DNA of 64,000 nt. It comes from Nostoc sp. HK-01 (lineage in GTDB: Bacteria; Cyanobacteriota; Cyanobacteriia; Cyanobacteriales; Nostocaceae). Both the position numbers and the translations under genes were made by a program. Position 1 is the first letter of the stretch, and each line of letters begins with the position of its first letter. The notes below the pieces were generated by a model. It was not told the DNA's origin. It ran no database searches and saw only the letters and a program-made list of their open reading frames with translations. This document shows, piece after piece, positions 12,761 to 54,093 of the stretch. The stretch lies in assembly GCA_003990705.1 (NCBI GenBank), contig AP018318.1, positions 2,669,501 through 2,733,500 on the forward strand. The letters run 5' to 3'.

Positions 12761-13777
12761 TTAGAATTGGGTAATTTTCTTTTCTATCTTTGGCAGAGCA
12801 ACAGGTAACCACTCATTACTACTGTCAAGTTTCACTAGTGCCTGCCCAGTAGACCGAGGCTGTAGCGTAGCAGGGTCAACCTGTGCTAGGCATTGCACCT
12901 GCAACATCTTGCTTACAAGGTTAAACAAACCTTTGATGCCGAACAGGCAGAGTTGAGTGTTGTTATGAGCTACTACTGTTAATGGCATCATAGGTTTGCG
13001 GCTTTTAGTGAGTGCCAGCTTGCCAAATTTCTCTAGTAAAGCTTTATCTTTAATGAAATCGCCGTAGGTGGTTGCTTCCTCAGTGATTAAGGCGATCGGT
13101 TGTAGCCCGGCGCGCCACTCATCTTCAGACTTGTCACTGTTGTTTAAATCAGCCAGGCGGCGCTCTAGCTCATCAACATAAAGTCTAATTTGTGCTTCGA
13201 TGTCTTCCCAGGTATGGTAGGACTCTACACCCTTCCACTCACTACGGTTAGAGTCGGGGTCGCAAACTATGACGCGATAACCTGCATCTTTCTTAAGCTT
13301 CACAACATAGCGCGCCAGCCAGGACTTACCTCCCCCTTGGTTGCCCCAAATGAGTGCAGTTTGTTTAACCAAATTCTGTGTCCATTCGGTGCTGGTAGCC
13401 GGGGCGGCGGGCATTGGTGCATCATCTAATAAGTCTTGGGCATCAGCGGAAACACTACACCCAAGCTCCGCAGCAGTCTCAATCTCTGTAGCAGTGACTT
13501 CAATACCATACTGCTTTTCATACTCTTTGAGGTTTTGTCCCTTAAGTACGTGAGGTACTAGCCCACGCGCGATGGCAATCTCGCTGTTAACATATTCACT
13601 CGCGCGCTTGATTGCCAAATGCACCAACCAACCACCAACTATTAGCCCACCAGGGATGGAGCCTGTGAATGCTACAGTCGCCATTCCGCTCACCATACTC
13701 ATTAACAGTAAGAACTGCGCGCCAGATTCAGAAATGCTGTCTGAGGCTAAATCCTGCCAATCAGATTTATCGCGCAT
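12761..13777 (-). CDS. Membrane-linked P-loop ATPase (HerA/FtsK/VirD4-like)
   Basis: 338 residues from the ATG at 13777, which has GGGAGG at the right distance; a GTG three bases earlier is too close. Residues 15-60 hold one or two hydrophobic segments, residues about 130-330 the ATPase: Walker A GNQGGGKS, a VIVCDPDSNRSEW strand, Walker B-like PIALITEEATTYGDF, and TVVAHNNTQLCLFGIKG resembling the sensor region of DNA-pumping ATPases. It is the last gene of a five-gene minus operon of which two others are membrane proteins. Possible roles: DNA translocation, exclusion or defence. The subfamily is uncertain; it is not the terminase, which is elsewhere. Confidence 0.7.
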   Translation of the reverse strand: MRDKSDWQDLASDSISESGAQFLLLMSMVSGMATVAFTGSIPGGLIVGGWLVHLAIKRASEYVNSEIAIARGLVPHVLKGQNLKEYEKQYGIEVTATEIETAAELGCSVSADAQDLLDDAPMPAAPATSTEWTQNLVKQTALIWGNQGGGKSWLARYVVKLKKDAGYRVIVCDPDSNRSEWKGVESYHTWEDIEAQIRLYVDELERRLADLNNSDKSEDEWRAGLQPIALITEEATTYGDFIKDKALLEKFGKLALTKSRKPMMPLTVVAHNNTQLCLFGIKGLFNLVSKMLQVQCLAQVDPATLQPRSTGQALVKLDSSNEWLPVALPKIEKKITQF

Positions 13778-14450
13778 CACTACCTCCCTTAGCGTTTAAG
13801 TAGTATCTAATCTGGTTAAGCATAAGCAGCCCGCGCACGCAAACTTCAACCACAAATACAGTTACCGATAGCAAGAAAACATTGCCCCAATTTATTAGTT
13901 GCCACTGACCTGTTATTAGTACATATAATAATTTGCCAATACCGCCGTCTACTGGTGGGTAACTGGCATAGCAAATCAATGTATCTACGACGTAACTGAA
14001 TAAACATCCATATACAATATTTTTAAAGGAAGCGCCTGGGATAGCATTAAGTGCGCGTTTGATAGCTCTCTGGGTGCGGTCGTCATCCTGGCTAGGTGCA
14101 TAGCGCCCGTGCAGACTGTACTCACGCAACACGGCCCGCATGAACTCTTTGTCATGTTTAATTAAAATCGGCGCAACTTGAAGAATCTGCAAAACTCCCC
14201 ACAGAACTACACCTACAATCCAGGGGAATAATCGACCAAAAATGGCGAAAATCCAACCTATTAGCGGCAAGGCGGTGAGCCAGGATATAATTGAAATATC
14301 AGGCAAGCTACCGCCTAAATAATGAACTGCTTTAACGTATGGCGAAATATTTAAAAAGGCAAAATATCCAGCTGCGGCTATCGCCAGGACGTAAAGCAGG
14401 TCAGCGAATGGTTTGATTGAAAATGGCTTGGCTTGGCGGCTTTGGGTCAT
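13767..14450 (-). CDS. Multi-pass membrane protein of the left operon
   Basis: 227 residues with about five hydrophobic segments: LLYVLAIAAAGYFAFL, IISWLTALPLIGWIFAIF, PWIVGVVLWGVLQILQ, a YGCLFSYVVDTLICY segment and VFLLSVTVFVVEVCVRGLLM. A cytoplasmic-looking basic loop (DDRTQRAIKRALNAIPG) joins the halves. I recognise no family. It overlaps the ATPase gene by 11 bp and the upstream TM protein by 4 bp, so the products are probably made together and may form a complex. Confidence 0.7.
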   Translation of the reverse strand: MTQSRQAKPFSIKPFADLLYVLAIAAAGYFAFLNISPYVKAVHYLGGSLPDISIISWLTALPLIGWIFAIFGRLFPWIVGVVLWGVLQILQVAPILIKHDKEFMRAVLREYSLHGRYAPSQDDDRTQRAIKRALNAIPGASFKNIVYGCLFSYVVDTLICYASYPPVDGGIGKLLYVLITGQWQLINWGNVFLLSVTVFVVEVCVRGLLMLNQIRYYLNAKGGSDAR

Positions 14451-16352: not shown

Positions 16353-16691
16353 TTAATAGAGCTTTTCTAATAAGTGTGGGTGGTGATTCTTAAGTGCTAA
16401 ATCCCTAATTGCTAAAGCTTCATTAAGTGTATCTACCGTGCCATAATTATGGGCTTCACCGTCCCATACACGCACACAATATTTACCTTTGGCTTCATAT
16501 ATGTATTTGCCGAGCGGGGAGGGCTTGCGGGTCTTTCTGGTGGGTGCTGGAGAGGTTTGTTGCCCAACCCATTCAACGATGGATTCTCCCTGTTCCTCAA
16601 AGGATGAGAAAGTGAGGAAATCACATTTAGTATCTGGATCTAAAGTGACTGTATATTCATTGGGATTGAAAGATAGGATTACACTTTTCAT
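16353..16691 (-). CDS. Small protein with one AP2-like domain
   Basis: 112 residues. The C-terminal half (GKYIYEAKGKYCVRVWDGE, then HNYGTVDTLNEALAIRD) has the strand-strand-strand-helix pattern of AP2 domains, which bind DNA through a three-stranded sheet. The N-terminal 60 residues are unrelated, with an Arg/Lys/Pro linker (PAPTRKTRKPSPLGK). It starts directly after the stop of the RHH gene, with AAGGAG placed inside that gene, so it is a third cistron with the antirepressor. See also the triple-AP2 protein at 22756. Confidence 0.6.
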   Translation of the reverse strand: MKSVILSFNPNEYTVTLDPDTKCDFLTFSSFEEQGESIVEWVGQQTSPAPTRKTRKPSPLGKYIYEAKGKYCVRVWDGEAHNYGTVDTLNEALAIRDLALKNHHPHLLEKLY

Positions 16692-16856
16692 TTACTCTTG
16701 CTCCTTTTGGAATTTGGTTTCTACGGAAAGGTTGAAGTATTCGATTGCGGCGCGAATCGCCACACTGCGCTTGATATTTAGAGATTCATAGTTGCGGGTG
16801 AACTCATCCATTAATTGTTCGTCCACACGGAACGAGTAACATCTCATCTGGCTCAT
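16692..16856 (-). CDS. Ribbon-helix-helix (Arc/CopG-like) protein, 54 aa
   Basis: Minus-strand ORF with ATG at 16856 and TAA at 16692. The product (MRCYSFRVDEQLMDEFTRNY, then NIKRSVAIRAAIEYFNLS) has the Arc/MetJ pattern: a short beta strand, then two helices. The start overlaps the antirepressor stop by 4 bp (ATGA) and the stop abuts the next ATG, so it is an operon member. Likely a dimeric DNA-binding regulator. Confidence 0.75.
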   Translation of the reverse strand: MSQMRCYSFRVDEQLMDEFTRNYESLNIKRSVAIRAAIEYFNLSVETKFQKEQE

Positions 16857-17674
16857 GCTGTTACCACCTCTAATTTGCTAGATACATACCCACGCTCCGC
16901 CAAACGGGGAATCAAGTATTGAATACCTTTTTGAGTAATTAATATTTGTTGCCGGGGGATGGCATCGGGTGAAATACTTTCACGCACAAAGAAAACACCC
17001 ATATCTACGAATTTTTGATATGGATGTTTGGACGTGATTAGGTATCCGAGTTTCTTAAGCACTTCAAATAGTTTGTTGCGTCCAATGCCAGGGATGTTGA
17101 GTAACTGTGCAGCTTCTTGCATAGTTAGGTTCGCTTTGCTTTCCAACAGAACATCAGCAGCCTGCGCCTTTGGCTTCAACTCATCAATATATATAGATTG
17201 CTGTTGTACCTGGGCTGTTAAGGCAAGCTTCTGCTCTTCAGAAGCTACTAAGGCTTTTAATGCCTCTAGATAGTTGCCGGGAATCTGGGGCTGAGGACGG
17301 GACATCGCAGCTTTGGCTATGCGTTCGCACTTCAAGAAGTAGATTCTTACCTGTTTGCCTTGCTCAGTTCCGGCCATCATGCCCCACTGTTTTAGGCATT
17401 CAGCGGTGAGGTAAATGTCTTCTTTACGAGAAGCGGCTGCTAACTGTTGGGGGCTGAAAGTACTGTGGTTGACAGATTCCTGAGACTTCAGGAGTTGGTA
17501 ATCTACTCCTTCAGTAAAACCGCATTTAATAAAATTGGCTTTGGCGTTATCTTTACGCGAGTAACCGAGCCATACCCAAGCATCATCGAAGCTTACTGGG
17601 AATTGCTCGGCTGATTGGTATATTTGATTTGCTAATTTCTGGGAAAATTGTGCGGAACGTGCTAAATTATTCAT
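16853..17674 (-). CDS. Phage antirepressor with KilAC domain
   Basis: 273 residues. The N-terminal domain (about 20-125: FDDAWVWLGYSRKDNAKANF and YLTAECLKQWGMMAGTEQGK) is the AntA/Bro-type module found in phage antirepressors. A coiled-coil linker (about 135-175) leads to a C-terminal KilAC/ANT wing (LTMQEAAQLLNIPGIGRNKL through ITQKGIQYLIPRLAERGY). Such proteins bind and inactivate lysogeny repressors. It is the first gene behind the strong promoter at 17764-17798 that carries a LexA-like box, which suits a role in induction. Confidence 0.85.
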   Translation of the reverse strand: MNNLARSAQFSQKLANQIYQSAEQFPVSFDDAWVWLGYSRKDNAKANFIKCGFTEGVDYQLLKSQESVNHSTFSPQQLAAASRKEDIYLTAECLKQWGMMAGTEQGKQVRIYFLKCERIAKAAMSRPQPQIPGNYLEALKALVASEEQKLALTAQVQQQSIYIDELKPKAQAADVLLESKANLTMQEAAQLLNIPGIGRNKLFEVLKKLGYLITSKHPYQKFVDMGVFFVRESISPDAIPRQQILITQKGIQYLIPRLAERGYVSSKLEVVTA

Positions 17675-17930: not shown

Positions 17931-17950
17931 TTGCCTGAGTCTCCGATCGC

Positions 17951-17997
17951 CAACGGTCAACGGTCAACGGTCAATAGTCAATAGTCAATAGTCAAGA
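17951..17997. repeat. Heptamer tandem repeat
   Basis: AACGGTC is repeated three times and then AATAGTC three times, the common cyanobacterial STRR type, here inside the prophage control region. This host-like repeat is otherwise rare within the prophage. Confidence 0.8.
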
Positions 17998-18179: not shown

Positions 18180-18593
18180 ATGCCTTTATCTCCTAGCGGG
18201 AGAATGCTGATTGTTGATCATAAAAGGTTTCCTCAAGCGTGTTGCGTTTACTGTATTTGTTATCCAGAAGGTACTCCCCTTTACGTGGGGAGTACAGAGA
18301 AATTACGTGATCGATGGAGAAAGCATCATCGGTGGGATGAAATTATTTTTGTAGAGGGCGCATACATTGAATGGGAATATTGCAATGAAGAGGATTTGCG
18401 TGATAGAGAGCGCGAGATTATCTCGGAAATAAAATATTTAATGAATGGCACCGCTGTCAAGTCAGTGGCTGAGATAGCGGAAGATATGCGAGAGTACTAT
18501 CGTCTCCGGGATGAAACAAACAGGTACTACGCCGAAGGCGGCGGCAGGTCGGGTATGACTAACAATTTATCAATTGATCCAACAAATACTTAA
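18180..18593 (+). CDS. GIY-YIG nuclease-domain protein
   Basis: 137 residues. CVYCICYPEGTPLYVGSTEK corresponds to the GIY and YIG strands, RDRWRKHH supplies the conserved Arg and His, and LRDREREIISEI holds the catalytic Glu region. The C-terminal part is charged and unrecognised. The domain cuts DNA in homing endonucleases and repair enzymes; here it may be a selfish nuclease or serve phage DNA processing. It is monocistronic on the plus strand in the early control region. Confidence 0.7.
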   Translation: MPLSPSGRMLIVDHKRFPQACCVYCICYPEGTPLYVGSTEKLRDRWRKHHRWDEIIFVEGAYIEWEYCNEEDLRDREREIISEIKYLMNGTAVKSVAEIAEDMREYYRLRDETNRYYAEGGGRSGMTNNLSIDPTNT

Positions 18594-18905
18594 TTGTTTT
18601 TACATCCCTTCGACGAGCGCCTCCCCTCATGTTTAGCGCAACGCTGGGGGGTGCCCGGTAAGAGTGTGTTCCTATCCCCATTACGGAACAAAAATGCTGA
18701 AACCCGCATGGTTAAGGGATTTTGTACCCGTACTGGTTATGGTATTTTGAGCAAAAAGGGGTAACCAGTACTGTTTCGGAAAAGGGTTTTTAGTACTAAA
18801 CGTCAACCTATTTGTACACTTAGAGCCTGCAAGCACACCTCCCAATCCAATACTTAAGTCAGAAGGCTACCCGCAGGCTTTAGTTGAGATACTTGTGGCT
18901 GGGGA
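18594..18905. other. Intergenic region with two inverted repeats, 312 bp
   Basis: GTACTGGTTA (18730-18739) and TAACCAGTAC (18762-18771) are a perfect 10-bp inverted repeat with a 22-bp spacer. AGCCTGC (18824-18830) and GCAGGCT (18873-18879) form another, 42 bp apart. The genes on either side converge on this gap, so these may be terminators, operators or origin iterons; no T-runs follow them. No ORF or tRNA is seen. Confidence 0.5.
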
Positions 18906-19475
18906 CTAGATTTCTAGGAAGGTTGGTTTGCGGTTGATATCAAACTCTACCCTTTCTCTATCCACGCCATTGATTTGCATAATCCTTTGAATAGAATCTT
19001 CCCTTGCTTGGGCTTCTAAATCTGGAAACTTATCTTCCTCAAAATATCTATCATGTAAAGCCTGAGCACCTGCTATTATTGGTATTCTAAACTTGGATAC
19101 TAGACCATATGATAGATACTCCTGCTTAGACTTATTAAAATCTTCCTTATTAAATGTAAAGTCATCTATTGAAAGCCAGGCAACCATAGCTGCTTCAATA
19201 ATAAGTTTTCTTCCCTCATGCTCTAGATCTGGGACTATACTGTCAAATTTATTTCCATATAGTTCATACCCATATGTTTTAACAATGTGTAAGCATTTGT
19301 ACTGTTTAACAAAACATTGGTGCTGAAGCCTAATGTAAGGCGATATACCATCGATTGGTAGTCTTATTAATGTTCCTCTGTACGTGTAATTGTGTTCCTC
19401 CCTTATTCTTTTCAACAGCCACTCTCGCAGAACTGTGGGACTGGAGGGTGCAAAGTCTGTTACTTGTTTGGTCAT
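18906..19475 (-). CDS. Hypothetical phage protein
   Basis: 189 residues from the ATG at 19475, preceded by GAGGAA; an upstream start at 19532 lacks a ribosome site. The protein is soluble and mixed alpha/beta (LLKRIREEHNYTYRGTLIRL, VAWLSIDDFTFNKEDF, FEEDKFPDLEAQAREDSIQR). I recognise no family. It diverges from the replication gene across the T-free tract. Confidence 0.6.
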   Translation of the reverse strand: MTKQVTDFAPSSPTVLREWLLKRIREEHNYTYRGTLIRLPIDGISPYIRLQHQCFVKQYKCLHIVKTYGYELYGNKFDSIVPDLEHEGRKLIIEAAMVAWLSIDDFTFNKEDFNKSKQEYLSYGLVSKFRIPIIAGAQALHDRYFEEDKFPDLEAQAREDSIQRIMQINGVDRERVEFDINRKPTFLEI

Positions 19476-19729
19476 AAAGTGGTTCCTCACTCTATTTAAG
19501 GAATGTAAAGAAAATTTCGACCAGAACAGCACGCATTTTATTTTATGATTTTATACTCTTTTGGGTACTACGTGTCTGGAGATTGTCAGGAGTTTACTAC
19601 GACATAAACGATTAATTGGTGGGTTAAAAGTGGGCAAAATCACCCTAATTTAGTATTCCCGGTGACGAAAAATTGAACGCTGGAAACTCTTACTGTGTAT
19701 GGGTTGTAGAGGCTGATATGTCCACTTAT

Positions 19730-19962
19730 AAAGAGGGCAGGAGGGAGCAGGCAAGCAGGGGGGGGGGGGGAGGAGGGCCAACCGGAAGCCAGCCAGAGGG
19801 GAGAGCCAGAGCCACCCAGCCAGCCACCAACCACAGCCCCGACCAGCCACCAACCACCAACCACCGGGCGACCGCCCAGCAACCAGGCGGCCACACACGC
19901 CAGACCCAACCACCAACCACCAACCAGCAACCACCCACCAGACCCAGGAGAGCCCGCGAAGC
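19730..19962. other. 233-nt tract without any T on the plus strand
   Basis: From 19730 to 19962 the plus strand has only A, C and G. The left part is G-rich with a run of 13 G (19758-19770) and further GGG blocks able to form a G-quadruplex; the right part is C/A-rich with repeated CCACCAACC units. Immediately after it CCCGCGAAGC (19953-19962) recurs at 20002-20011. The tract lies in a 751-bp divergent gap, 264 bp before the polymerase-like gene. Stops are impossible in all six frames here, so ORFs across it are artefacts. Candidate replication origin; function unknown. Confidence 0.8.
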
Positions 19963-20226
19963 TGATTTTTTTGATTTCAGCGTTTCAATCAGCCCTATAT
20001 TCCCGCGAAGCGGCAAACCATATCAACCATTTAAATTCCTGCTTTAATTGTTGGGGAGAGAATGGGGGGTAATACGATATCATATTTACTGCCCTATGTC
20101 TACAGTTTTCCTGCTGAGTGTGCTAGTATAGATTTAAGAGGTTCAACCCACTGCGTACACCTCCAAAGCAAAATTCCTCCCCAGCGCTAACTGGGAAGGA
20201 TTAATCAAAAAATATTTCATTCATAT

Positions 20227-22707
20227 ATGACTAGTATAGCACAAACCAACGCTTCAACCCAAATCAACCCAGAATTATCCGCCAAGCTTCAGAGCCAGCT
20301 AGAAGCCCTCCTCAATAAGCTATGCGAACTCCGATGGATATGTGACAGTGCAATGCTTGGCTGGGATATCAATAAAGATTCTGAATACTTCATGGAGCGT
20401 GTGCGGAATATTCAGCCTCTCACCTACATAAACATGGGTAGGCAAGGATTAACAGATCCAACCTGTATTTATGTAGGAAGCCTTGTTACTAGAGTTCTTA
20501 CCTTAAAGGGCATGATAGGCTTTGATGAAAAATTCTCTCTGGGATGCTTGCAGGATTCTGTACCTCAATATTTAGAGACAATTAATAAAATAAGCGCAGA
20601 GGCTTGTGAACTGCTGGAATCGCTTCAGAATCCCCCAGCACCTGCCCCCGCCACAGATGAACCAGAAACAGTTGTAGAACAACCCCAACCCTATGTAGAG
20701 CCTGTCAAGCCTGCCCGCCGTGGTTTATCCGATCGCGTTATTGAGACGATACGGCAGATGGAAGCATTGGCTAATGCCACGCCAGAACAGTGGGAGAGAT
20801 TGGAGAGACTTGTTCGGACATATAAAGTTTACGCTAATGCCCTGGAAGGTGTGCAACGGTTTCATGAAAAGCATCCGTCTTCTGAATTAGAAGAATTCTT
20901 TTCCAAGCGCCCAGCACAATCACAAGAGCCAACAGAGACTGTCGAGGATATAGATGATGTCTCTGATCATGCTGTTGGCGCCGCGCCCGCCGCTGACCTA
21001 AGCAATCTATATATAATGAAGCTTCGCAAGAGAAGCACCAAAGGAGAGGAGAAGCAACGCAGCTACCTTGGCACGGCTTACATGGCATCTTCATACGTCT
21101 GCACCAAGTCAGTAGCAATTTTTATCAACTCACTGTTGGAAGAGCTTCGCGTCAACCATGACACGCTCAGATTTTACCTGCACATGCTGAATGCCAGCAC
21201 AGTGCATACTTATCACCATGAGAATTACTTTGTTCCTGTGTGTAGAGATTTCATCGCTGATAAGTGCCCCGGTGCAAAAGAAGGCAAGAAGAGTCTTATT
21301 GCTGCCGGGCTTCTAGAATGCCAAGAGGATTACATTCCAGGTGAGAAGAGCAAACGCTACCGCGTCCCTTTTGAAATTCAGGAACGTATTATAGATCTCA
21401 CAATTAACGACCTGCTGTCTGAAGATATTGAGTTGCAGTCCGATCGCTATGATTTGATGAAGCAACGCAGAGCTAAGGATGCGCCCCGCAGTCAATATAC
21501 ATTGGATGGTCAGAAAATAACTGATTCCCACCACGGCCACATAGAGTTCAATAGCAATACTACAAACGTATTCCCTAAAGTCCTGCTTTGTAAGCAACTC
21601 AAGGCATACAGAGCCAAATATAAGGATATGCCAGAAAATACCCTAGAAGAACGCATTGCCAAGCTTAGAGCTAGGGAGTGGTTTGTGTCGGCGTTCAGTG
21701 CGTACAAAGCAGGTACACTTGATGCTGGGGCCATTAGCCTGCCAAACGGTATGGCTATGATAAAACCAGCCTACGCACCGCAGAAATCTGGCAGAATCAC
21801 AATGTACAGGGGGGGTTTCCAGAACTTACCTCGTGAACTACAAGACGTTGCTTTTTACTGGACAGAGTATCGTAACTTCGATATGGTTGCGGCTCAGAGC
21901 AAAATCGCTTACCAATTGCTCAAGGAAGATGGTTTAGAATCTGCTTGGCTAAAGAACTATATTGACGACCCCAATGCCAAGAAAGTTCACGCCGCCGCCT
22001 GCTTCCCAGATGCAGACACTGATGCCAGAGTGAAGACGTTTAAGGATTGCTTGCACGCGTATCTCATGGGCGCTGCTGTTACAGCACCCAGCGATAAACT
22101 CCGTATTGAATGGGAAACTGCTTGGAAAGTTAAGTTTATAGATCGTAAGCCAGTTCGCCCCTCCGCACTCCGAGACATTGTGTTCGGTTTGTACAACACC
22201 TGCTCTGGTGCTTGGGAAGCTTTTGTACGCTGGTACAACCACTGCATACCTCTAATAAAAGACATTAGCGCATGGCACAAACACATCAATCTTGCTGTTG
22301 CTGGCAAAGTCAACGCTCCGACTTGGCTAGTTAGAAATTCCGTTCAAAAGTCTCAACTAGATAAGAACCTCGGCAAGCCTAGCTGCAGGAATAAGATGGG
22401 AAATACAGATCCCATCGACGGACTAAAGGGTGGAAACCTTATTAGAGAGGTAGTCCCATTTTTGTTGCAAGGCGCAGAGGCAAGATTTATTACCGAGGCA
22501 GAGGTTATTTCTGAGGAATACGGTATCAGCATCTCACTCAACATGCACGATGGCTTCATCGCCTTGGTAGATGATGACACAAACCTAGAAGGTAAGCTGT
22601 TGGAAATCTCTTCTAAGGCAAGCGAGAGAAGCGGTGTTGTTGGTTGTTTGGCTGAGAAGCCCTTCAAGGAACCTAAGCTCCTGTTTGAAACCGATCCATA
22701 TATCTAA
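20227..22707 (+). CDS. Divergent family-A DNA polymerase-like replication protein
   Basis: 826 residues. Residues 1-280 are unrecognised (helical, Pro/Glu linkers); about 280-400 resembles a winged helix ending KSLIAAGLLECQEDYIPGEK. The C-terminal half has three motifs in polymerase order: NFDMVAAQSKIAYQLL with D552 (motif A), KTFKDCLHAYLMGAA with K606 and G615 (motif B), and LNMHDGFIALVDD with H774-D775 (motif C). In E. coli Pol I, D705 to K758 is 53 residues and K758 to G767 is 9; here 54 and 9. HDE has become HDG. I infer a phage replicase. No 3'-5' exonuclease motifs are seen. Confidence 0.5.
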   Translation: MTSIAQTNASTQINPELSAKLQSQLEALLNKLCELRWICDSAMLGWDINKDSEYFMERVRNIQPLTYINMGRQGLTDPTCIYVGSLVTRVLTLKGMIGFDEKFSLGCLQDSVPQYLETINKISAEACELLESLQNPPAPAPATDEPETVVEQPQPYVEPVKPARRGLSDRVIETIRQMEALANATPEQWERLERLVRTYKVYANALEGVQRFHEKHPSSELEEFFSKRPAQSQEPTETVEDIDDVSDHAVGAAPAADLSNLYIMKLRKRSTKGEEKQRSYLGTAYMASSYVCTKSVAIFINSLLEELRVNHDTLRFYLHMLNASTVHTYHHENYFVPVCRDFIADKCPGAKEGKKSLIAAGLLECQEDYIPGEKSKRYRVPFEIQERIIDLTINDLLSEDIELQSDRYDLMKQRRAKDAPRSQYTLDGQKITDSHHGHIEFNSNTTNVFPKVLLCKQLKAYRAKYKDMPENTLEERIAKLRAREWFVSAFSAYKAGTLDAGAISLPNGMAMIKPAYAPQKSGRITMYRGGFQNLPRELQDVAFYWTEYRNFDMVAAQSKIAYQLLKEDGLESAWLKNYIDDPNAKKVHAAACFPDADTDARVKTFKDCLHAYLMGAAVTAPSDKLRIEWETAWKVKFIDRKPVRPSALRDIVFGLYNTCSGAWEAFVRWYNHCIPLIKDISAWHKHINLAVAGKVNAPTWLVRNSVQKSQLDKNLGKPSCRNKMGNTDPIDGLKGGNLIREVVPFLLQGAEARFITEAEVISEEYGISISLNMHDGFIALVDDDTNLEGKLLEISSKASERSGVVGCLAEKPFKEPKLLFETDPYI

Positions 22708-22755: not shown

Positions 22756-23379
22756 ATGCCTAAGAAAAAGAAGCAACCACCCCTCCCCCACGTTGAGTTT
22801 ATTGGCGTTGCATGGAATGAACAGCACAACGCCTGGGAAGCAGTTATCAATGGCAAACATCTAGGCTTCTTTGAACATGATTTTTTGGCTGCATTAAGAT
22901 ATGATTTCTACGCCAGTAAAGAGGATCTCACCCCTAATTTCCCTTGGCGTGCCGTGCCATTACCAGTTCCTAAATTCCGGCTCCCCAGTACTACCCAAAA
23001 ATCAGAATATCTAGGTGTAAGGAATAAAGGCGATCGGTGGTGTGCCTACTATAAGAATACTTATTTAGGAACCTATAACAGTCAAGAGGACGCAGCAATA
23101 GCGCGTGATAAGCGCACAGTTGAGAAGGAAGGTTGGCGGTCAAAAAATCTTTCCCTGGCATATTCGCAAAGCGCACTCGCACCCAACCCAGTACCATCTC
23201 AGCGCGCACGCTCTCCACATGGTAAACACATATCCCTGGTAAAGGGCAAACACTACCAAGTGTGCATACGTCGCGGTGGGCAACGTTATTACCTAGGCAT
23301 ATTCCGTGAACTAGAAGAAGCCCAGCATGTAAGAGATGAGTTCTGCAAAAAGCACTTTATAAATACAGAATACAGATAG
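22756..23379 (+). CDS. Triple AP2-like domain DNA-binding protein
   Basis: 207 residues built from three AP2-like repeats: about 13-58 (FIGVAWNEQHNAWEAVINGK, HLGFFEHDFLAALRYD), 84-125 (YLGVRNKGDRWCAYYKNTYL, GTYNSQEDAAIARDKRTV) and 155-200 (VKGKHYQVCIRRGGQRYYLG, IFRELEEAQHVRDEF). Each has three strands and a helix with the typical W/Y, YLG and A-x-x-RD positions. There is no HNH or GIY nuclease attached. Likely a sequence-specific DNA-binding protein for regulation or replication. It is co-directional with the polymerase-like gene and ends at a strong terminator. Confidence 0.75.
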   Translation: MPKKKKQPPLPHVEFIGVAWNEQHNAWEAVINGKHLGFFEHDFLAALRYDFYASKEDLTPNFPWRAVPLPVPKFRLPSTTQKSEYLGVRNKGDRWCAYYKNTYLGTYNSQEDAAIARDKRTVEKEGWRSKNLSLAYSQSALAPNPVPSQRARSPHGKHISLVKGKHYQVCIRRGGQRYYLGIFRELEEAQHVRDEFCKKHFINTEYR

Positions 23380-47914: not shown

Positions 47915-49009
47915 TCAGATTGGTATATCAGGTAAATCAGGGCGATTTATCATATGCCCGTAGGTCATCATTACCATCCGAGTGTCACCATGCCCAGCGA
48001 TGTAAGCTACTCCAGTAAGCGGTGTGCCTTGCTCTATAGCGTGGCTAATCGTGGTGTGGCGCGTGGTGTAGGGTCTTCTGTAGTCAACACCTACTTTAGT
48101 AAGCACTTTTACCCAGTACCTTTCCCTAAAATTACCATCGTCTATTGTTTTGCCTTTGACTGTGGTGAACACTAGGCAATCTCGGTATGTCCTGTGCGGT
48201 TTAATTGATAAAAGTAGTTGCTTAAGTTCAGGACTCATTTTTAGCTGGCGCGCGCCACCTGACTTGGTTTCCTTCCGAACCCTTTGGTAGCCATTGCCTG
48301 CCCAGTCTCTGGACAAGCTCTCCTGGACTGTTATCAGTTCTCGCTCAAAATTAATGTGTTCCCAGCGCAACCCGATCGCTTCTGAGGTTCTTACACCAGT
48401 AGCCAACAAAAACTTGACAAACGATACATAGTGTGGTGCAAACTCTTCAAAGCCTTTAATGATTGTCCTGATTTCCCTGTCATTAAAAGGCTTTATAGGC
48501 TTTGGCGCAACCTTACGGGTCTTCACATCAGCATAATGGTTAACGTCTGTCAATCCCTTAGTTAAAGCCCATTTGAAGCAAGATTTTAGATAGCCTAGGC
48601 GCTGATTAAAGGTGGACGGGGAGAGTTCGGCTTTTACTAACCATGCTGTATCAGTTAAGTCTGGGTTAGATTTAACAATCTGCTGTCTAATTGTTTTGTA
48701 GTGATGTTCTCTGGTGGCAGCCGGGAGGTCGAGCGAGTCTACCCACGCGTCCCATAACTTAATTAATAACTTTGGCTTTGGCGGGGCTGGTTGAGTCTTA
48801 AGTGATAGCCTGTAACGATCTAAAGTGGGGTCAAAATTCCTGGCAAGGATGTCGTTCTCTATTTGTGTGGCTATAGCTCTGGCATTTGCTATATCCCGCT
48901 TATCACTGTAACGTCCAGCGGGTATAGGGTTGAAGCTATATCGCTTGCCACCATGAGTGAATTTTAACTGTATGCTCCCATTATTATTTATTGGTTCAAT
49001 TTTTCGCAT
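47915..49009 (-). CDS. int: Tyrosine integrase
   Basis: 364 residues. The N-terminus (QLKFTHGGKRYSFNPIPAGR, then ARNFDPTLDRY) matches the arm-DNA-binding domain of DUF3596-type integrases; a core-binding helical domain follows. The catalytic domain has Arg in ATGVRTSEAIGLRW, the lysine beta-hairpin (ETKSGGARQLKM), R in YTTRHTTISHA (where Y replaces the first His of H-x-x-R), H in AGHGDTRMVMMTYGH and the nucleophile Tyr. It lies just inside attR, with candidate arm sites directly upstream of its start. Confidence 0.92.
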   Translation of the reverse strand: MRKIEPINNNGSIQLKFTHGGKRYSFNPIPAGRYSDKRDIANARAIATQIENDILARNFDPTLDRYRLSLKTQPAPPKPKLLIKLWDAWVDSLDLPAATREHHYKTIRQQIVKSNPDLTDTAWLVKAELSPSTFNQRLGYLKSCFKWALTKGLTDVNHYADVKTRKVAPKPIKPFNDREIRTIIKGFEEFAPHYVSFVKFLLATGVRTSEAIGLRWEHINFERELITVQESLSRDWAGNGYQRVRKETKSGGARQLKMSPELKQLLLSIKPHRTYRDCLVFTTVKGKTIDDGNFRERYWVKVLTKVGVDYRRPYTTRHTTISHAIEQGTPLTGVAYIAGHGDTRMVMMTYGHMINRPDLPDIPI

Positions 49010-51795: not shown

Positions 51796-54093
51796 CTATG
51801 AAGCAACAGATACACAAGTATGCACTAAGGGTAACAAAGGCCCTAATTGTTCTTGGCCGTTTACGGCTAAATCGCTGTGACACAAATACACTTTTTCAGA
51901 TACACGCGAGAGTAAATCTGTCAAAATTCTGCGTAATCTTTCTTGTTCTATATTTTTTTCATCTTGGGCTGTCCAAGCTTCGCCTAATCTATCTTGTAAG
52001 AATAACGGCGCACCGAATAAGGTAGCTGCACCACCTTTTGCCCATAATGGTGAACCCGCATCTAGCCAAAAATGCCAACGGTGCGATCGCCGACTCGAAC
52101 GATATTGGAAAATAGTTGCTAAGGTGACGGCTTTTCTTGACAAGCCAATAGGACGCAAGGGATAAGGATTGGCGGTGATAGTACCACGTCGCAAGAGTTG
52201 AATAAATTCAGCCAAGGGAGTGCTGAGTGCTGAGTGCTGAGTATTTATTAATACTTCTTCTGCCCCCTGCCTCCTGCCCCCTGCCTCCTGCCCCCTGCCT
52301 CCTGCCCCCTGCCTCAACCTAGTATCAATTTCCCAATAATGTTGGGCAGTTTCTAGCAGTTCTCGCAATGCGGCCATTTGGTCGTAGGGGGGGTTATTAT
52401 CTTTACAAAAAAAGTCTTGAATTGCTAGATACAACAGAGAAATGGGGCTAGGTATTAAACGCTGTTCTTGTTGCGATCGCTGTTTTTCAATCCACTGTAA
52501 TATCTGACTATAAGCTGTGGTTGCGGCATAGCCAATTCTATCCCAGCGCTCAAAAGATGTGACTGGTAATAAATTAGGTCGGTCAGGATGAGGTACAAAG
52601 CAATAATCAGCGATTAAACCCGCACGTACTGGGTCGATGTGTGTGCTGAGTACTGAGGAGCCACTGCGTTGGGCGGGTTCCCCGACTTGAAGCAAGTGGC
52701 GTTGCTGAGTTAAAGATTCTACTTCTCCCCCCGCCTCCTGCCTCCTGCCTCCTGCCTCCTGCCTCCTACTCAACACTACCAACATCTCAGCAACTGCATC
52801 TCGGTCTACCAAGCGCCCCAAACCTGGATAAATTAATGCCAACATGGTTAACAATGCCCTAATCATTGGTGAACTAATCAAGGGGCGTTGGTCGTTGAGT
52901 GATTCAACGGGGATGTTTTGCTTAGTGAGAATTTCGGTGATAGTATAACGAGCGATCGCATCTAAACCAGGTGCAATGATGGCAATTTCTTCTGGTTGTA
53001 TTCGTCCTGATTTGATAGCTTTGCCAATGACCTCGGCTGTAGTTCGCAGTAGTTCAGCACGAGAGGTAGTTTGAATTGATTGTACTGTTGCTGGTAACTC
53101 TAACATTACCAGTGGTTGTGTAATAAATTCTACTATTGGTGTAGCTAGTTGCTCTGCCAAAGACTCTTCCACGGGTGCAAACAAAGTTTCTAAGCGACAA
53201 TGCCTGGCTAAACCTTCCAAATAGTTAGGATCTGCGCCTAATCCCCAGCGGATAGCTCCATCAGGATTATAAGTAAATGCACCAATTGCGCCACGTTCTA
53301 AAAGTGTTTCACATAACTGACGGGCTACAGCTGGATAATCATCAACATCATCAGCTAGTATGGCTTGATACCTTTGGGTCAGGCGCTCTTGGTAATGGCG
53401 ATCGCTTAACAAATGCTGAGAGTATAGTTCAGTTATAATCCCATAAGTGAGTAAGCCTCGCTCTAAACACCAGTTACGCCAATCTAGCAGCAAAGATGCC
53501 AGAAATTCCGGCTCTAGATTTATGCCATTTTCCTCTAAACCTTTTTGCAAAACCTCTGCAATTCCTTCACAGGGTGTGCCACTATAAGCAGCTAGTTGCA
53601 ATAAATCCAAAATCCGCCGCACTAAACGGTATTCATTCACTCCCACCCGACGCAATACTTCTGCATCTAATTGCTCACGCCAGAGTTTTGTTGCTAATTC
53701 CTGTTCCGTTTCTGGGCGTAATCTTACCGGAAATTGTGCCTTGAGATGCAACAACTCAATTAGTAAAGGCCAAAATAAAATAACTTCATCCTGAAAAAAA
53801 CCTAATGGAGTTTTAGCACGAATAGGGTATTTTCCTAAAGTTTTTGTAACAATTTTGTCAGATAATTCTCGACGATTGTCATCATTGGCAGCTAAGACCA
53901 AAACTCCCGGTTCTGTTTGCTTCAAACCTAAAGGTTTCGAGATGGAATTGTCTGATTTTTTTCCGGCTTTTTTAGTATAAAATAATTCAAAGTTATGATT
54001 TTCTATTTGCAGCCAACGACAAAAATGTTCTACTAAACGAGTTGTCTTACCACTGCGGCTATTGCCGACAATCCAAACAGAATGCGAAATCAC
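51796..54093 (-). CDS. UvrD-like helicase-related protein with inserted repeats
   Basis: 765 residues, GTG start at 54093 with AAGGAG. Walker A GNSRSGKTTRLVEHF, a degenerate motif II (QAILADDVDDYPAVARQLCE), EEIAIIAPGLDAIARYTITE and later helicase-like blocks suggest the UvrD/AddB superfamily. The D-E-x-x box is D-D-V-D-D, so helicase activity is uncertain. Residues about 445-480 and 605-635 are low-complexity (RRQEAGGRRQEAGGEVES and similar), encoded by heptameric DNA repeats that keep the frame open. Likely role in recombination or repair; the cyanobacterial family has no known function. Confidence 0.6.
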   Translation of the reverse strand: MISHSVWIVGNSRSGKTTRLVEHFCRWLQIENHNFELFYTKKAGKKSDNSISKPLGLKQTEPGVLVLAANDDNRRELSDKIVTKTLGKYPIRAKTPLGFFQDEVILFWPLLIELLHLKAQFPVRLRPETEQELATKLWREQLDAEVLRRVGVNEYRLVRRILDLLQLAAYSGTPCEGIAEVLQKGLEENGINLEPEFLASLLLDWRNWCLERGLLTYGIITELYSQHLLSDRHYQERLTQRYQAILADDVDDYPAVARQLCETLLERGAIGAFTYNPDGAIRWGLGADPNYLEGLARHCRLETLFAPVEESLAEQLATPIVEFITQPLVMLELPATVQSIQTTSRAELLRTTAEVIGKAIKSGRIQPEEIAIIAPGLDAIARYTITEILTKQNIPVESLNDQRPLISSPMIRALLTMLALIYPGLGRLVDRDAVAEMLVVLSRRQEAGGRRQEAGGEVESLTQQRHLLQVGEPAQRSGSSVLSTHIDPVRAGLIADYCFVPHPDRPNLLPVTSFERWDRIGYAATTAYSQILQWIEKQRSQQEQRLIPSPISLLYLAIQDFFCKDNNPPYDQMAALRELLETAQHYWEIDTRLRQGAGGRGQEAGGRRQGAEEVLINTQHSALSTPLAEFIQLLRRGTITANPYPLRPIGLSRKAVTLATIFQYRSSRRSHRWHFWLDAGSPLWAKGGAATLFGAPLFLQDRLGEAWTAQDEKNIEQERLRRILTDLLSRVSEKVYLCHSDLAVNGQEQLGPLLPLVHTCVSVAS
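52218..52314. repeat. Heptamer repeats inside the UvrD-like gene, block 1
   Basis: GAGTGCT is repeated from 52218, then CCCCCTGCCTCCTG units (14 bp) from 52263 to 52314. Both are intergenic repeat types in cyanobacteria. The 7-bp unit is translated in three frames over 21 bp, giving repeats like GGRRQGA without a stop. Confidence 0.85.
52642..52768. repeat. Repeat insertion inside the UvrD-like gene, block 2
   Basis: A GTGCTGAGTACTGAG segment at 52642, then a GCGTTGGGCGGGTTCCCC GACTTGAAGCAA-type repeat and five CCTCCTG units (52734-52768). The middle part resembles another dispersed Nostoc intergenic repeat. All remains in frame. Confidence 0.8.

Follow-up and report, generated by a model that had tools for sequence, protein, structure and literature searches.

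A T-free tract beside a divergent family A polymerase-like gene in a Nostoc prophage: a probable replication origin element and a possible site of RNA priming

A 64 kb stretch of the Nostoc sp. HK-01 genome (positions 2,669,501 to 2,733,500 of AP018318.1; hereafter the window) contains a prophage in which 233 nt of the forward strand, positions 19730-19962, lack T altogether (71 A, 92 C and 70 G; 162/233 or 70% G+C). The tract occupies a divergent gap between genes at 18906-19532 (- strand) and 20227-22707 (+ strand), the second of which appears to encode a DNA polymerase. We consider it probable that the tract forms part of the start site for phage DNA replication, and put at about 0.4 the probability that it is, more specifically, the non-template strand of an RNA-primed origin in a cyanobacterial prophage encoding its own Pol I-like polymerase. 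In favour of an R-loop origin are the complete lack of T in three genomes, the conserved edges of the tract, the extreme energy of the RNA:DNA hybrid and the association with the polymerase gene. A first-pass annotation of this DNA had already suggested an origin or priming role, and this is still the best reading because skewed tracts go with the polymerase in 17 of 19 loci.

The basic description given by that annotation was accurate in all its parts: 233 nt without T, a G13 run, C/A units (for example CCACCAACC) and a location in a divergent gap, with 264 bp between the 3' end of the tract and the polymerase ATG at 20227. Its further claim, that such a run has negligible probability by chance, is borne out. 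The longest T-free runs in 60 order-3 Markov simulations trained on the window minus the tract averaged 34.1 nt with a maximum of 57, and a sample of the same genome (33 stretches of 20 kb, or 660 kb of 7.5 Mb) had a longest run of 85 nt, a GGGGGCAGG-type repeat, followed by runs of 45 and 43. That nothing similar exists elsewhere in the window is true of length, the runner-up T-free run being 50 nt, but needs qualifying for a 62-nt A-free repeat of CCCCCTGCCTCCTG type at 52254-52315, the opposite strand of which is T-free and which resembles an ordinary cyanobacterial repeat. GC and AT skew turn close to the tract but track gene direction. An ORF (19673-20047) crosses the tract and stays open because a T-free strand cannot contain a stop codon; in the related locus L067 the same frame ends, by eye, in TAA just before the tract, and we therefore do not take this ORF to be a gene. 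The features of the region are collected in Table 1.

Table 1 Features of the tract, its flanks and the surrounding prophage, in window coordinates
Feature	Position	Strand	Basis or remark
Antirepressor (KilAC/Ant), same early region	16853..17674	-	PF03374, 2.9e-18
208-aa gene across the divergent gap	18906..19532	-	No Pfam/PHROG match
Imperfect palindromic site (GCTGGAAACTCTTACTGTGTATGGGTTGTAGAG), 5' edge of tract	19679..19711	+	Sequence; conserved in L046 and L067
Promoter-like pair TTGTAG-17-TATAAA	19704..19732	+	Sequence; T-free run begins inside -10 box
T-free tract, 233 nt	19730..19962	+	First part G/purine-rich, second A/C-rich
G13 run within tract, possible R-loop nucleation cluster	19758..19770	+	Sequence
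GCGAAGC, 3' boundary of tract	19956..19962	+	Invariant in three close relatives
T7 run directly after tract	19966..19972	+	By eye
CCGC-GAA-GCGG mini-hairpin	20003..20013	+	Comparison by eye
TGTGCTAGTATAGAT, predicted separate promoter of polymerase gene	20119..20133	+	First 14 bases unchanged in L046 and L067
Divergent family A DNA polymerase gene, 826 aa	20227..22707	+	Fold of homologue
Winged-helix-like domain preceding polymerase domain (residues 281-421)	21067..21489	+	Predicted
Integrase	47915-49009		

The clearest evidence that the absence of T matters comes from two close relatives, L046 and L067, whose polymerases are 69% and 55% identical to that of the window (the latter value applying to L067/L003). 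Both carry orthologous T-free tracts, 154 and 156 nt long, upstream of the polymerase gene and on the same strand. Counts of T in the window, L046 and L067 are 0, 0 and 0 in the tract, 20, 19 and 21 in the preceding 60 nt, and 83, 83 and 80 in the following 264-291 nt. In a MAFFT alignment conservation falls on the edges: the palindrome and a CCACTTA box ahead of the tract, and GCGAAGCT where it ends; the length and letters of the tract itself vary among the three, and the G13 run as such is conserved in neither relative. The three tracts align better than their own shuffles, which fits common descent or a shared order, purine-rich first and A/C-rich last. The absence of T has thus been shown to be kept while the sequence turns over in three relatives. 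We propose that the letters diverge between conserved edges because selection would act on base composition (no T on one strand) and not on sequence. The finding of ordinary sequence at the same gap in related prophages would have spoken against the tract; none was found in these two close relatives.

Since independent genomes have the tract, the suggestion of a low-complexity assembly artefact can be set aside. A related reading holds that T-free repeats (the GGGGGCAGG and CCACCAA families) were inserted or expanded by slippage and have no function. CCAACCA heptamers do form arrays in the window tract (stretches of 24 and 35 nt, plus a weak 11-mer array with a 64% match), these parts match 16 other genomes of the 150 searched (own included in the 150) and the genome sample holds the 85-nt T-free repeat mentioned above. 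With the whole tract as DNA query, 17 of the 150 genomes (own included) matched, the pieces outside the own genome being 27-117 nt long and the query ranges mainly the C/A heptamers or the G-rich start. The heptamers recall cyanobacterial STRR elements, but no short unit runs head to tail through the window tract, and the orthologous tracts of L046 and L067 contain no CCAACCA arrays and still have no T. Together with the conserved edges and the recurrence of a skewed tract by the polymerase in 17 of 19 loci, this has already weakened the idea of functionless growth, which we regard as very improbable.

This recurrence emerged from a wider survey of the polymerase. Searches found it in 7 of 150 relatives and 9 of 388 genomes of the order (own genome included in both), and also at six genome contig loci, on eight viral contigs (one being the window's element) and on one plasmid. 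Searching 72,556 plasmids by tblastn gave one match and 50,697 phage records none; further scans of viral contigs with two distant queries returned no relative, and a motif scan of viral contigs returned one contig, the same as L049. Nineteen loci were left after removal of duplicates: L001, L002, L045, L053 and L104 repeat the window, L047 repeats L039, L040 and L058 L063, L005 L041, L007, L051 and L057 L042, L008 and L054 L044, L004 and L055 L068, L006 and L056 L069, L003 and L110 L067, L059 L064, L060 L065, and L061 and L062 L066. The named related loci come from Anabaena, Nostoc, Cuspidothrix, Calothrix and Picosynechococcus, with one contig binned as SAR324.

We scanned the 19 loci in 70-nt windows for a shortage of any base or an excess of any two. 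The most skewed window lay outside the polymerase gene but no more than 750 bp away in 17 of the 19 (2.27 expected under random placement, P 1e-14, the 750-bp limit having been set after seeing the data). When the test was applied to the loci's other ORFs, down to a length of 150 aa, 11 of 142 qualified. The two exceptions, L041 and L066, are distant loci with no notable tract near the polymerase. The skew takes several forms. Six of the 19 loci (the window, L046, L067, L039, L068 and L069) have a T-free run of 100 nt or more on one strand or the other, the T-free strand of L068 being opposite to the polymerase and the tract of L069 lying downstream of the gene. At the remaining tract-bearing loci the sequence on one side of the polymerase gene or the other is rich in purines or in pyrimidines, and some of them also have shorter T-free or A-free runs, as in L048 (71 nt), L052 (69 nt) and L042 (48 nt). 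The trait thus runs in the family, the window having its longest tract, and it extends to the 13.7 kb circular plasmid L038, where a homologue is likewise accompanied by a skewed tract. In L043, the SAR324-binned contig from outside the Cyanobacteria, a pyrimidine-rich tract lies just upstream of the polymerase homologue. In L049, a viral contig of 190.9 kb, no in-frame ORF longer than 250 aa covers the polymerase match, and the gene may be split or truncated.

That the 20227-22707 gene is polymerase-like, as the first-pass annotation had it, is supported by structural modelling. A family A fold (right-hand, Pol I type) was found for a homologue of the window polymerase, and the putative catalytic Asp residues of two segments, YDLKSSQ and HDG, which by eye resemble motif A and motif C, are invariant in 16 of 16 sequences. 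No DNA-polymerase family was matched by the window protein in Pfam and PHROGs or by the 16 homologues in PHROGs (threshold 0.1) and Pfam (threshold 1), and no polymerase chain by a sequence profile searched against PDB. Some homologues match PHROGs of unknown function (phrog_34692 in 6/16, phrog_30690 in 5/16) and one weakly matches a DNA primase family (E 0.0065). Among the best matches in a viral fold search are proteins of large phages, Dickeya phages JA29 and JA11 and Erwinia phage Yoloswag (E 3e-12 to 7e-9; BFVD entries A0A384ZXE9 and A0A1S6L3C5 for Dickeya and Erwinia phages); these share the fold, are themselves uncharacterised and possibly belong with the window polymerase to one unannotated polymerase group. 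Prophage-borne PolA3 polymerases are mentioned in PMC12926913. The survey also draws attention to a set of family A polymerases with no Pfam or PHROG polymerase match.

How might such a polymerase use the tract? Under the RNA-primed reading, host RNA polymerase would start at a putative promoter overlapping the palindrome, the -10 box of which supplies the last T. The transcript would lack U over about 220 nt and be G-rich at first; with strong rG:dC pairs and no weak rUU:dAA step, as the computed energetics suggest, it could stay paired to its template. The resulting R-loop would nucleate where G is abundant and extend as far as the T run that follows the tract. Once cut by RNase H, this RNA may prime the adjacent family A polymerase, which the winged-helix-like domain may bring to the site, perhaps by binding the palindrome. 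We regard the R-loop primer step as tentative. A bolder version, in our view rather unlikely, would make the winged-helix/family A polymerase fusion both initiator and replicase of a new kind of phage/plasmid replicon, its origin defined by base composition, in which a U-free transcript held on the template primes DNA synthesis and the sequence is free to change while no T appears. The promoter-like pair keeps its spacing of 17 in L046 (identical hexamers) and L067 (TTATAG-17-TAAAAG); a consensus promoter scan did not list TTGTAG-17-TATAAA, the scan rule requiring T as the final -10 base.

Hybrid stability was estimated as RNA:DNA minus DNA:DNA energy along the T-free strand, with two parameter sets and, for the relatives too, a background of same-length windows sampled from the window's genome. 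No background window was as low as the tract of the window (0/35,310), L046 (0/35,442) or L067 (0/35,442), and all three were extreme under both parameter sets. The first set comprises the values of Sugimoto and SantaLucia. No hybrid step is less favourable than rUU:dAA in this table, and only rCG:dGC is in the other, which is why freedom from U suits R-loops. In the window, L046 and L067 the energy is lower in the first half of the tract and the complement is less favourable as RNA. Extreme values were also obtained for L069 (12/35,508) and L048 (5/35,574), though there the second half outdoes the first. Under the second table the A/C-rich tracts of L039 and L068 do not come out as R-loop-prone, 4,884/35,508 and 22,139/35,442 background windows being as low. 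That table reproduces the values in PMC6442632 (seven negative steps, a mean of 0.23, a mean of -0.15 for the negatives and -0.36 for GG), where G clusters are also described as initiating R-loops.

A denser scan in fixed 100-nt windows, which like the R-loop locus counts covered 18 loci with plasmid L038 left out, gave background fractions as low as the tract of 3.0e-6 for the window, 2.6e-5 for L046 and 0 for L067. For 13 of 18 loci the top-ranking R-loop window falls no more than 750 bp from the polymerase, the exceptions being L039, L068, L041, L064 and L066; that of L069 is on the antisense strand, beside the tract.

ColE1 Pol I and mitochondrial Pol gamma are both family A enzymes, and human OriH is not known to exclude T. 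The proposed scheme resembles the ColE1-type origin (RNA II R-loop, DNA polymerase I) in its promoter, its G-rich transcript retained in a hybrid and extension by a family A polymerase, but here the polymerase is phage-encoded and divergent and the transcript would be U-free over about 220 nt. According to PMC6317783, R-loops prime replication both in ColE1 and at human mitochondrial OriH, where the R-loop primer (LSP transcript, CSB II R-loop) is processed by RNase H1 and a G-rich non-template strand likewise follows right after the promoter. OriH is served by a mitochondrial RNA polymerase, whereas a bacterial-type promoter is predicted here. Among the titles and abstracts listed in literature searches, none describes a T-free origin. 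Origins are usually recognised by conserved sequence words; the property conserved here is one base missing from one strand over 150-230 nt in three relatives, with the letters changing. If the R-loop reading is true, the tract would allow a clean test of the idea that U content governs how long R-loops last and how primers form; it would also supply a compact polymerase-plus-origin module drawn from the mobile DNA of cyanobacteria, and a route to spotting unannotated RNA-primed origins.

Polarity is what tells against a single R-loop model. Of the 17 loci with a tract near the polymerase, 6 (L068, L052, L044, L043, L049 and L038) have their purine-rich or T-poor strand antisense to that gene, and the palindrome lies 5' of the T-free strand in five (the window, L046, L067, L039 and L068) but, as placed by eye, 3' of the purine-rich strand in eight more distant ones. 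One promoter-to-tract polarity therefore does not fit all loci. At L068:7121-7391, moreover, are six copies of an iteron-like 18-nt repeat (AAACTAACTTTGTTAAAC, 83-100% alike) that come to within 85 bp of the tract and suggest initiator-driven melting. For both reasons an origin element that works at the level of DNA has to be taken seriously as a rival, if a somewhat less probable one: the strand-asymmetric stretch would melt and offer a base-restricted single strand to polymerase, helicase, SSB or primase, beside a palindromic initiator site, with no transcript needed. This would cover the A/C-rich and the pyrimidine/purine-rich forms in both polarities, and is in keeping with the winged-helix-like domain on the polymerase and with the A/T-rich DNA that accompanies the repeats beside the L068 tract. 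Such repeats and A/T-rich DNA, and the palindrome beside most tracts, are also points of likeness to iteron/A+T-rich plasmid and phage origins. The window differs from these in its G+C-rich tract, in having no recognised initiator among the genes scanned and in its repeats: no iteron array appears among the five largest of the nine direct-repeat families of 18560-20230, the multi-copy ones among these five being the tract's own C/A repeats. By itself, melting leaves T exclusion unexplained, nor does it account for the way the tracts of the three close relatives begin G-rich and reach such extreme hybrid energies, and at 70% G+C the window tract would be a poor melting site.

Folding speaks on both sides. 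The window tract leans towards the unstructured strand predicted earlier, since as DNA it was outdone in folding by all 200 of 200 shuffles (z 3.0; z 2.2 as RNA); among dinucleotide shuffles, 146/150 fold as well for the window, 146/150 for L067 and 150/150 for L069, as an origin acting as DNA would have it. Lack of structure is not supported as a common property, since scores are uneven over seven tracts: L046 and L039 are not low like the window, L067 and L069, and L068 and L048 hardly fold. The G-quadruplex also envisaged is not supported as an essential or shared feature, since of five T-free tracts tested the window's alone shows the strict pattern, which it owes to its G13 run.

The palindrome at the 5' edge could be placed by eye in most polymerase loci. 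Its 23-nt core, with up to three mismatches, has one match in the window and none in 100 shuffles; a model of it (R1) refinds the copies from which it was built, which is circular. We reject it as an RNA hairpin, covariation in 17 copies being no better than in shuffles, and as a specific marker, similar sites with no tract beside them being scattered through Nostocales genomes: with a 35-position model, 58 of 60 genomes gave matches at E up to 0.5. Eighteen palindrome loci besides the window and L067 (about 3 kb each or less, from 20 loci printed) had no base-free run above 60 nt listed. The type AA.CCTTAC...GTAAGG.TT is dispersed in Nostocales (loci L105-L123), with 46 matches at E up to 0.5 in genome G022. 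By eye, tract and palindrome occur twice each in L063, L065, L041 and L052.

At the other edge, d(GCGAAGC) hairpins are stable, and the motif is non-specific, with 12 occurrences in the window against 5.9 expected. A/T-rich DNA follows the tract, by eye, in all three close relatives, and the mini-hairpin has a counterpart in L046 (CTGC-GAA-GCAG), which amounts to one compensating pair in two sequences only. The block at 20119-20133 is probably the polymerase gene's own promoter, judging by its conservation. This bears on a further reading, that the tract specifies a U-free regulatory leader or small RNA, long-lived or protein-binding, which sets a lysogeny/replication switch and plays no part in initiation. 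The promoter-like sequence at the start of the tract, the antirepressor gene nearby and the second tract and palindrome copies of L063 and L065 would suit such an RNA; yet the polymerase has that promoter-like block of its own, and the constant partner of the tract is the polymerase gene. An Rfam search of 18500-20400 at E up to 1 gave no match, which speaks against a known RNA, and we hold a purely regulatory RNA to be improbable.

The prophage itself has a contractile tail, with terminase, portal, major head, sheath, tape-measure, baseplate and tail-fibre genes; its IMG/VR entry, L045, is a contig of 33.5 kb that, judged by offset, spans window positions 15507-49009. That it looks intact is what commends a packaging or recombination site, the former among the earlier suggestions. 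We find this hardly credible: the terminase (25106, some 5 kb off) and the integrase (47915) are distant, the constant neighbour is the polymerase, and a similar skewed tract lies by the polymerase on plasmid L038, where a Pfam scan covering 10 of the 25 annotated proteins recognised no phage structural gene. No helicase, primase or initiator was recognised among 20 window proteins searched against PHROGs. The 208-aa gene has no tblastn match (E 1e-4) in the 18 other polymerase loci searched, and antirepressor homologues occur in 7 of these 18.

At the left end of the early region, the product of 12761-13780 resembles, weakly, a P-loop ATPase (AAA_10, E 2e-4; terminase-like, E 6e-4) and shares 26% identity with a DUF87-type protein of plasmid L038, over 97 residues only. 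Around the origin region are genes for a GIY-YIG endonuclease (18180-18593), an HNH endonuclease with a weak AP2 match (22756-23379) and a weakly HNH-like protein (16353-16691). Tandem heptamers, ACGGTCA changing to ATAGTCA, lie at 17950-17995 between genes of the prophage early region.
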